Shown here: piece by piece, positions 7,449-41,447 of the stretch
Layout: the number at the start of each line of letters is the position of its first letter
How positions within the stretch are numbered: the stretch's first letter is position 1
From: a virus
Virus record (IMG/VR): IMGVR_UViG_3300017783_000052
Location: 1 to 45,040 of that record
Strand: one strand, 5' to 3'
DNA length: 45,040 bases
Position numbers and translations under genes: made by a program
Notes under the pieces: model-generated
Databases searched by the model: none
What the model saw: the letters and a program-made list of their open reading frames with translations, nothing else
Told to the model about the DNA's origin: nothing

Positions 7449-8775
7449 ATGGCATTTCCAGTAGCAAGTGGTTACGGCAATTTACCTAACGGTAATTTTT
7501 CGCCAGTAATCTATTCTAAGAAAGTCCAAAAGGCTTTCCGTAACACCTCTGTTGTAGAGGATGTCACTAACACCGATTACGCAGGTGAAATTTCAAACAT
7601 GGGTGATAGCGTAAAAATCATCAAAGAACCAGAAATCACAATCAACTCATATACTCGTGGAACAGCACTTGCGACACAAGATTTGACTGACGCAGATTTC
7701 ACTATGGTAGTTACAGAAAGCAACTACTTCCAATTTGCTATTGACGATATTGAGGAAGCACACTCTTAACTTATGGGAGCTTTTAGGAGTAATCCTAATC
7801 GAATAACTAGGTGAATTGTCTGGGACACCCTAACGTAAAGACGAGGGCAATCAGCAGCCAAGCCGCACAGCGGAAGGTTCAACGACCATCTCGAAAGAGA
7901 GTAGGATCAAGTGATCCGAAGCGCCTAGCCCCTGAAAAATATCAGGGTGATGATATGGTCTTCTCTGTAAGGACAACTTGCAGCAGTTCATAAGAGAACG
8001 GACAAGTAATTAACGAGACTTGTTGAAAATACGGCATGTGAACTTCATCGATTTAGCAACTGACCGTGCAGGTTTTAAACTTCGTGATGCATTTGATCGT
8101 GAAGTGCTAGGCTATATGTCTGGTTGGAATTGGAATGGTTCTGCATGGGTTAGACGTACAGCATTAGACACAGGTGGATCTAAAGCTGACTCAAACGCAG
8201 GTAATGACGAATTGCTTGCAGCCAACAAATTAGACATCACTGACTTTGGTGGTTCTGATGTTGGTGGAGAGGCTGAAGTAACGTCTATTCCTCTAGCTGC
8301 AGGTGGTGGCGCAGGTGCTATCACTTCACCATTAGCTGTTATAGGCCGTATGGCTCGTTTAATGGATGCAGCAAACGTAGATACCGAAGGTAGATGGTGT
8401 ATTGTTGACCCCGTCTTTAAAGAGCTACTCCTTTCAGAAGATTCAAAATTAATGAACGCTGATTTTGGTGGCGAAGGTGAAATAAGAAACGGACGTATGC
8501 CAGGTACTATTCGTGGTATGCGAGTATACGTTTCAAATAACCTTCCATACGAGTCAACAGGCCCAGGAACTTCAGCTTCTGCAGGTTCTGAGGCTGCCTA
8601 CGGTGTTATGGTTGCAGGTCACGATGCAGCGGTAGCTGTAGCGGATCAAATTGCGAAAACTGAGAGCTTCCGTTCTCCAGACACATTCGCAGACATCGTC
8701 CGTGGTATGCAGCTTTATGGTCGTAAAATCTTACGTCCTGAAGCTCTTATGACAGCGAACTACAACTTAGCCTAA
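7449..8775 (+). CDS. Major capsid protein, gene split by a group I intron
   Basis: Exon 1 is 7449-7766 (106 codons, ending ...EEAHS) and exon 2 is 8035-8775 (246 codons plus stop, starting HVNFIDLATDRAGFKLRD). Joined in frame they give 352 residues, close to the length of T7-type capsid proteins. The N part (MAFPVASGYGNLPNG) and the DDIEEAHSHVNF junction look like a continuous coat protein of podovirus-like marine phages. The contig frame is broken by the intron, whose first codon is an in-frame TAA, so unspliced RNA would yield a 106-residue fragment. A strong ribosome site (AAAAGGAG) precedes the ATG. The gene has its own promoter, leader and terminator, fitting very high expression. Confidence 0.92.
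7767..8034 (+). ncRNA. Group I self-splicing intron (IA-like, no endonuclease ORF)
   Basis: Helices that can be traced: P1, exon CTCU 7763-7766 with GGAG 7776-7779, giving the required U-G pair at the 5' splice site; P10, exon CAUG 8035-8038 with 7772-7775; P2 7785-7796; P3 7807-7813 with 7922-7928; P7 7884-7888 (GACCA) with 7956-7960 (UGGUC); P8 7930-7934 with 7943-7947; P9 7961-7966 with 7993-7998. Two extra hairpins at 7889-7900 (GAAA loop) and 7904-7917 match the P7.1/P7.2 insertion of subgroup IA. A terminal hairpin is at 8002-8023. The conserved core strings AATCAGCAGCCAAGCC and GGTTCAACGACC are present. The intron ends in G8034. No homing endonuclease is encoded. Confidence 0.95.
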
Positions 8776-39618: not shown

Positions 39619-39656
39619 AAAAAAAGCCCCAATCTTTAGACTAGGGCTACTTTTTT
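39619..39656. terminator. Bidirectional terminator
   Basis: AGCCCCAATC (39625-39634) pairs with GACTAGGGCT (39639-39648), ten pairs with G-T, TTTA loop. Minus strand: TTTTTTT follows (39625-39619). Plus strand: ACTTTTTT follows. It separates the AUU-start gene from the helicase operon. Confidence 0.8.
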
Positions 39657-39672: not shown

Positions 39673-39876
39673 TCAGTTAGTTCTAAATTTCATCCGTGAA
39701 ATGTCGGGTGGGATATCACCCCTACGTTCTTTCATGTCTATCTGATGAAAAACCACACGCTTATTATCTTTTACGATTTCAGCTATTGCTTCTTCTAATT
39801 TCTCTTGTTCTTCAGCGGCTCCTTTAAAGCCCCCTTCAATTGTGTAATCAATAACGATTATTGCTCTTGCTTTAAT
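39673..39876 (-). CDS. Conserved-looking small protein with apparent AUU start
   Basis: The frame encodes 67 residues, (M)KARAIIVIDYTIEGGFKGA, then a helix (EEQEKLEEAIAEIVKDNKR) and VVFHQIDMKERRGDIPPD. It looks like a compact alpha/beta protein. No ATG, GTG or TTG lies between the upstream in-frame stop (TAG, before 39876) and the body of the protein. AAGGA lies 8 bases before ATT 39876-39874. AUU starts are known for E. coli infC and pcnB and give low or regulated translation. I recall similar small phage proteins with MKxxxIIxID starts. A terminator follows the stop. Confidence 0.6.
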   Translation of the reverse strand: MKARAIIVIDYTIEGGFKGAAEEQEKLEEAIAEIVKDNKRVVFHQIDMKERRGDIPPDISRMKFRTN

Positions 39877-39928
39877 TGTACTATTCCTTTTTGTTTTAAG
39901 TCGGTACTAGTAAGCTTCGACTCAGTAA

Positions 39929-40264
39929 TTATTTATCTACGTAATCTATATACGTATCTATATTCAATGCTAATCCGTGATCATTTTTTCTTGGTGGAGC
40001 AGTATGAGAATACATGAACTTAAATTGATTAGCCCAACTGCAAAATATTAAGGAATTGAGTAAATTAGAGTTAGATTTTTTATTGCGTGATTTAAACATA
40101 AATCTTGTAATAGTTCTGTGATAAATAACACCAACACTCGTTAGAGTAACTAATCTTTTATTCCACCACCGAAAAGAAATATAGTTTCGGAAAAAACTTC
40201 TTCTCCATCCAGTGTATTCGGTAATGTCTACGTTTCTATGGTTGTATATCACTCTTTTAGTCAT
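39929..40264 (-). CDS. Hypothetical basic protein
   Basis: A 111-residue protein rich in Arg/Asn/Trp/Tyr (MTKRVIYNHRNVDITEYTGW, WWNKRLVTLTSVGVIYHRT, CSWANQFKFMYSH). It starts 5 bases after the primase stop and has only a weak ribosome site. No family was recognised; it may be a nucleic-acid-binding or membrane-edge protein. Moderate certainty that it is translated. Confidence 0.5.
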   Translation of the reverse strand: MTKRVIYNHRNVDITEYTGWRRSFFRNYISFRWWNKRLVTLTSVGVIYHRTITRFMFKSRNKKSNSNLLNSLIFCSWANQFKFMYSHTAPPRKNDHGLALNIDTYIDYVDK

Positions 40265-41327: not shown

Positions 41328-41401
41328 TACTATAAAACGCCAGTAAGTTATGGGCTTATCTAATACCGCCACCTGCTAACCTATTGATTTATAAGGAATC
41401 T

Positions 41402-41447
41402 GGCTATAACCTGAAGGTCAGAGGTTCAAATCCTCTCCCCGCAACCA
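41402..41447 (+). other. attP: 3' part of an initiator tRNA gene
   Basis: The 46 bases from GGCTATAACC to GCAACCA match the 3' part of tRNA-fMet: anticodon stem ACCTG, variable GGTC, T arm AGAGG-TTCAAAT-CCTCT, acceptor 3' strand CCCCGCA and ACCA. The 5' half (CGCGGGG acceptor and D arm) is absent, so it cannot be a working tRNA. The anticodon loop lacks one C relative to CTCATAA, which probably marks the edge of homology. It sits about 1 kb from the integrase with phage genes on both sides, so this is the uninserted phage site. Crossover here would restore the host tRNA. Confidence 0.85.

Follow-up and report, generated by a model that had tools for sequence, protein, structure and literature searches.

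The window analysed here, which is the whole 45,040-nucleotide stretch of the IMG/VR virus record IMGVR_UViG_3300017783_000052, carries a small gene on its minus strand flanked by the DNA primase and DNA helicase genes. A translated search revealed homologues in four isolates, the Roseobacter phages CRP-235, CRP-212, CRP-3 and CRP-738, all HMO-2011-type roseophages in which the unnamed gene occupies the same position between primase and helicase, and 319 IMG/VR stretches encode a relative of the 67-residue product. The features of the gene and its immediate surroundings are as follows.

39929 to 40264, minus strand: small open reading frame (111 amino acids, ATG start, from the open reading frame list) between the primase and the AUU gene
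39874 to 39876, minus strand: candidate AUU start codon, in the same column as ATG, TTG, GTG, ATA and ATC in 96 distinct leader and protein combinations
39673 to 39876, minus strand: coding sequence of the 67-amino acid protein (stop codon at 39673 to 39675), supported by translation, homologues and selection
39625 to 39648, minus strand: putative intrinsic terminator directly after the AUU gene and before the helicase, with a 10-bp stem and a T tail

The frame at 39673-39876 (minus strand) translates as IKARAIIVIDYTIEGG...SRMKFRTN, 67 amino acids followed by the stop, within a stop-to-stop length of 77 amino acids. The upstream in-frame TAG is found at 39907-39909, and the ten codons leading from it to ATT (TAC CGA CTT AAA ACA AAA AGG AAT AGT ACA) contain no ATG, GTG, TTG or CTG. 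The preliminary description, which had reported no ATG, GTG or TTG after the in-frame stop and an AAGGA 8 bases before ATT, was thus accurate on both points, with AAGGA at 39885-39889 and ATT at 39874-39876; its expectation that a standard ORF finder would miss the gene also held, as the list of standard-start open reading frames of at least 30 amino acids lacks the 67-residue frame. The other two frames over the same stretch are interrupted by 7 and 12 stops, which, together with the abundant homologues and a dN/dS of 0.05-0.13 between the window copy and its relatives, argues that the frame is not a product of chance.

Coding constraint was observed across members with different start codons. 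L011 (ATT) and L014 (ATG) differ by 18 synonymous and 0 nonsynonymous changes, L142 (ATC) and L156 (ATT) by 19 and 1, L006 (ATT) and L007 (TTG) by 13 and 1, and the window and L002 (ATG) by 20.5 and 8.5 (dN/dS 0.07). The frame is under purifying selection whatever its start codon, which excludes a sequencing error or a dead gene, and the AUU-start gene is a real, conserved small phage gene. The two objections that the preliminary description had itself raised, a sequencing error creating the ATT and relatives lacking a homologous protein, both fell away, with ATT present in other contigs and homologues in the four CRP phages and the 319 IMG/VR stretches. It is accordingly very improbable that the ATT is an artefact or that the true start lies elsewhere, through a frameshift or further upstream: apart from the unusual codon itself nothing speaks in favour, whereas the same ATT with a nearly identical leader recurs in two contigs (L006 and L011), a second ATT lineage, distinct in both protein and leader, comprises several more (L150, L153, L155, L157 and L167), no ATT sequence has a canonical in-frame start upstream, and the N-terminus of the window protein aligns exactly with those of the AUG members.

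The protein matched no Pfam family and nothing convincing in NCBIfam and PHROGs; the best hit of a PDB sequence search had an E value of 0.81, and a fold search gave none in the PDB and only matches with E>4 in a viral library. Residues R4, D10, ERRG, D58, K63 and R65 are invariant in the alignment. Of the alpha/beta architecture proposed earlier only the alpha part was recovered, the AlphaFold monomer (pLDDT 84) featuring a single helix at residues 16-35, with no strand assigned.

In 101 of 102 relatives the gene is followed by a terminator-like hairpin, so it is probably the last gene of a transcription unit that precedes the helicase and polymerase genes. The terminator at 39625-39648 separates the small gene from the helicase, which suggests that the replication genes are preceded by a point of attenuation or antitermination. 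On the other side, the small open reading frame filling the gap after the primase (39929-40264 in the window, minus strand; also in CRP-3, CRP-212, CRP-235 and relatives, without annotation in the CRP records) changes fast, with its end conserved as PP[S/N/T/A][G/A]PP. Many relatives have it overlapping the end of the primase gene in the -1 frame, its ATG or GTG apparently falling within the codons for the primase residues LKWL (AAATGG, for example), and it was for this reason not taken as a case of -1 frameshifting or as a second start-less gene; it looks like an ordinary overlapping gene.

The start column of the 96 distinct leader and protein combinations, a set in which ATH is partly overrepresented owing to a directed scan for it, which yielded 22 contigs, holds ATG 74 times, ATT 10, ATA 5, TTG 5, GTG 1 and ATC 1; before that scan, 7 of 86 were ATH, the window excluded. 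Relatives bearing ATG at the same codon, for which the preliminary description had proposed to search, are therefore the majority. An ATT, ATA or ATC start was found in 22 contigs and the window, ATA occurring in L092, L095, L100, L103 and L160 and ATC in L142. On a gene tree built from codons 2-67, the ATH label requires 8 changes, at least 5 of which are forced by starred branches, and one clade (SH-aLRT 99) includes ATC, ATT and ATA. Since leaders and bodies recombine, as exemplified by L011 and L014, which share the protein and differ in the leader, these changes are counts on a gene tree.

AUH (AUU, AUA or AUC) is not conserved among orthologues in the manner of infC, AUG being present in the 74 of 96 above; the gene nevertheless has the properties of a natural AUH start, namely no canonical in-frame start, an N-terminus conserved from the AUH codon onward and a Shine-Dalgarno sequence in range. 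Two other entries into the frame were rejected: an upstream in-frame TTG in L142 and L160 is absent from their sister L156, and an out-of-frame AUG in AAGGAAUGG of some relatives corresponds to AUA in the window. Judged by these alignments, ATT is by far the best candidate start and AUU the only one compatible with the conserved N-terminus, and translation of the small gene appears to begin there.

The scattered, minority occurrence of AUH variants might reflect mere tolerance, in which a gene expressed at a low level lets its AUG decay occasionally to UUG, AUU, AUA or AUC with no regulatory purpose, leaving the leader structure described below as the sole regulator. The interchange of three AUH codons within one clade is what would be expected if they were equally weak. 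The adjacent helicase on the same contigs, in contrast, never has an AUH start, its start being canonical in 79 of 79 readable cases (in 8 of these it lies within ten codons of that of the model), and the difference in non-canonical starts between the two genes gives a Fisher p of 0.014 with relatedness ignored. Moreover, AUG lies one step away and yet was not restored in the L142/L156/L160 clade or the L150-L167 group. Decay without purpose is a serious contender under these observations, though we would put it at somewhat under even odds.

Start codons of this class are subject to initiation factor 3, which speeds the dissociation of non-canonical 30S complexes (PMC8266586), and in S. aureus AUU and AUA give ~10% of AUG expression, one case being the 61-amino acid cvfC1 (PMC13009471). 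The preliminary description had suggested that the AUU, if used, may tie translation of the phage protein to initiation factor levels, and by analogy expression of the small gene may be linked to the IF3 level. In the stronger form of this idea, AUU makes expression track cellular IF3 as for infC, so that the phage reads or exploits the initiation state of its host. AUU, AUA and AUC, the codons that IF3 rejects, do recur in the gene, and a strong Shine-Dalgarno sequence is combined with a weak start, as in infC. In the family of one MAG titled Rhodobacteraceae, infC begins with ATA in 20 and ATC in 1 of the 21 readable genomes, so AUH starts are used in the presumed host family. Most members of the phage gene have AUG and some UUG, which means that any link to IF3 would not be conserved across its members, and none of the tests made ties the identity of the attachment site to the start codon; an IF3 sensor is thus rather unlikely. 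The infC starts themselves (AUA in 20 of 21 and AUC in 1 of 21 among genomes L330-L356) are the counterpart of the E. coli infC AUU start.

The attachment site had been described as an initiator tRNA. This is consistent with a match to the 3' part of tRNA-fMet at about 41395-41442 and with the integration of CRP-3 in tRNA-Met(CAT) (PMC6918029), while its suggested link to the start codon found no support. The match at 41395-41442 (minus strand), from the anticodon loop onward, is a probable attP, in which the first base of the anticodon reads T instead of C; that base likely falls outside the core that is shared.

The main regulatory feature would be one that the first reading of the locus missed, an RNA pseudoknot enclosing the Shine-Dalgarno sequence. 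Its elements in the window are listed below.

39918 to 39922, minus strand: predicted stem S1, 5' strand AGUCG
39908 to 39912, minus strand: predicted stem S2, 5' strand UACUA, in the hairpin loop (aligned leaders, fixed register)
39899 to 39903, minus strand: predicted stem S1, 3' strand CGACU
39885 to 39889, minus strand: Shine-Dalgarno sequence AAGGA, in predicted pseudoknot loop L3 (sequence and aligned leaders)
39879 to 39883, minus strand: predicted stem S2, 3' strand UAGUA, 2 nt before AUU

A hairpin of the form [A/C/U]GUC[G/U]-A[A/U]G...[A/G][U/C]AC-[C/A]GAC[U/G/A] is present in 73 of 106 leaders, its commonest end lying 22 nt before the start, and the leader hairpin folds better than shuffled sequences (z-score -2.9). 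S1 covaries, being paired in 46 of 46 leaders with three pair types at pair 1 (A-U, C-G, U-A) and two at pair 5 (G-C, U-A). In the aligned leaders, the loop of this hairpin is complementary to the stretch that separates the Shine-Dalgarno sequence from the start codon; the UACUA/UAGUA of the window is replaced elsewhere by UUCAUA/UAUGAA, UACCA/UGGUA, UAUCUA/UAGAUA, UUACCU/AGGUAA, GCCA/UGGC, CCAU/AUGG or UGAUA/UAUCA. Because MAFFT put the S2 columns in the wrong place, pair counts were made in an anchored, fixed register, in which S2 pairs 2-4 are formed in 45 of 46 distinct leaders and Watson-Crick pairs occupy 153 of 184 positions at pairs 2-5, compared with a shuffled mean of 84.9 (sd 6.5); a single position can show as many as four different Watson-Crick pairs. 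A shift of the S2 partner by 1-3 lowered the Watson-Crick fraction from 68% to 22-23%, and when spacers were permuted among leaders, with one leader per distinct loop, 0 of 5000 permutations reached the observed score. In a hold-out limited to 9 unseen and redundant leaders, 8 fit the register, including a new pair type, and L301 did not; with 380 of 5000 permutations reaching the score, this small set falls short of significance by itself. Read from these aligned sequences, the leader is an H-type pseudoknot with both stems supported by covariation, and its unpaired bases A[A/U]G in L1 and [A/G][U/C]AC in L2 are near-invariant.

Among the fetched loci, the element lies upstream of this gene in 171 of 171 matches, and an IMG/VR-wide scan returned no new locus lacking the small gene, so that in both searches the element is confined to the gene it would regulate, as for an autogenous operator. 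Rfam gave only sub-threshold matches at the leader and none above the gathering threshold; an RNase P class B match (E 0.013, 15 bits where the cut-off is 97) was taken as chance. The leader hairpin is absent from 33 of 106 leaders and S2 is lost in some short-loop leaders, so the gene can do without the pseudoknot. Members with an AUH start include some that have the pseudoknot and some that lack it; the two features are therefore not coupled and look like separate means of lowering initiation.

Variation was also noticed within the leaders. In those of the ATA lineage (L100, L103 and L095) the usual hairpin has a shorter loop and S2 has been lost, and an inserted hairpin, GGGCGAUAAAUCGUCC, has a GUCC able to pair with a GGAC beside the start, possibly as a replacement of S2. 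The leaders of CRP-235 (L018), L009, L140, L125 and others have another conserved hairpin, farther upstream than the pseudoknot: CGCAGAGG...ACUGCG, after which CAACAACC often follows.

The reading that we favour, at a probability of roughly 0.78, is that of a real, conserved gene translated from AUU, whose ribosome-binding site lies within an H-type pseudoknot that limits initiation, whose AUH start lowers output further in several lineages and which is plausibly autoregulated. In this proposal S1 forms just upstream and its loop pairs between the Shine-Dalgarno sequence and the start as S2, which would close directly against the start codon, ending 2 nt before AUU, and leave the Shine-Dalgarno sequence in the A-rich L3. 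The folded pseudoknot would compete with 30S binding, and either have to be melted or trap the 30S subunit, as suggested by its geometry and by the known rpsO, alpha-operon and T4 gene 32 systems. A weak AUU, AUA or AUC start would reduce output again, with IF3 expected to reject most complexes. The small gene is probably kept at a low output, with control exerted at the initiation of protein synthesis.

The gene would most likely be controlled by the protein it encodes, which is small, has basic residues that never vary in the alignment (R4, ERRG, K63, R65) and would repress its own synthesis. The confinement of the element to one gene and its conserved unpaired bases make autoregulation by the basic 67-residue product the simplest guess, albeit one we consider a little short of an even chance. 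The pseudoknot might instead be a riboswitch-like sensor of a small molecule or host protein, its H-type topology, A-rich loop and near-invariant unpaired bases being reminiscent of SAM-II and preQ1-class ligand pockets. An element located only before one phage gene with no known metabolic role, and with no Rfam match above threshold, makes such a sensor improbable. Broader still is the proposal of an undescribed phage cis-regulatory RNA family, in which an RBS-embedded H-type pseudoknot acts as an autogenous switch for a small RNA-binding regulator at the end of the early transcription unit, with AUU, AUA or AUC starts of the host infC class adding, in several lineages, a double control at 30S initiation; we advance it tentatively, as a conjecture with about one chance in three.

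Pseudoknot operators that overlap the ribosome-binding site are found in E. coli rpsO (S15), the alpha operon (S4) and rpmI-rplT (L20). The phage leader would share with them an RBS-overlapping pseudoknot whose expected effect is to trap the 30S subunit or compete with it, while its sequence is unrelated and the gene downstream encodes no ribosomal protein. In T4 gene 32, an H-type pseudoknot lies in the leader upstream of the ribosome-binding site; both are phage replication-region genes with an H-type leader pseudoknot, whereas in the present gene S2 would close directly between the Shine-Dalgarno sequence and the start, and the 67-residue protein is no known single-strand binding protein. 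SAM-II and preQ1 riboswitches are H-type with the Shine-Dalgarno region in the pseudoknot, a topology that the leader shares, although it has no Rfam match and no metabolic gene downstream. With respect to the start codon, infC and pcnB, which start with AUU or AUA, and S. aureus cvfC1 and ccpN resemble the small gene in combining an AUH start and a good Shine-Dalgarno sequence for low-output translation, cvfC1 being likewise a small conserved protein with an AUU start (PMC13009471). Different from these, the present case is a phage gene whose start varies across relatives instead of being fixed, and the IF3 feedback known for infC would be conjectural here.

The locus thus offers one gene of an abundant marine phage group that took up AUU, AUA or AUC repeatedly, with AUG relatives as a built-in comparison. 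To our knowledge, natural AUU, AUA and AUC starts are few and the known cases mostly bacterial. Genes of this kind escape annotation pipelines when they begin with AUH. The pseudoknot, an RNA element that is compact, covaries strongly and is absent from Rfam, makes possible phage throttling of a replication-region gene directly testable.

Elsewhere in the window, a group I intron (RF00028, 72 bits) at 7757-7983 (plus strand) interrupts a gene, the upstream exon open reading frame ending at 7769 and the next long one extending from about 8020. The split gene probably encodes the major capsid protein.
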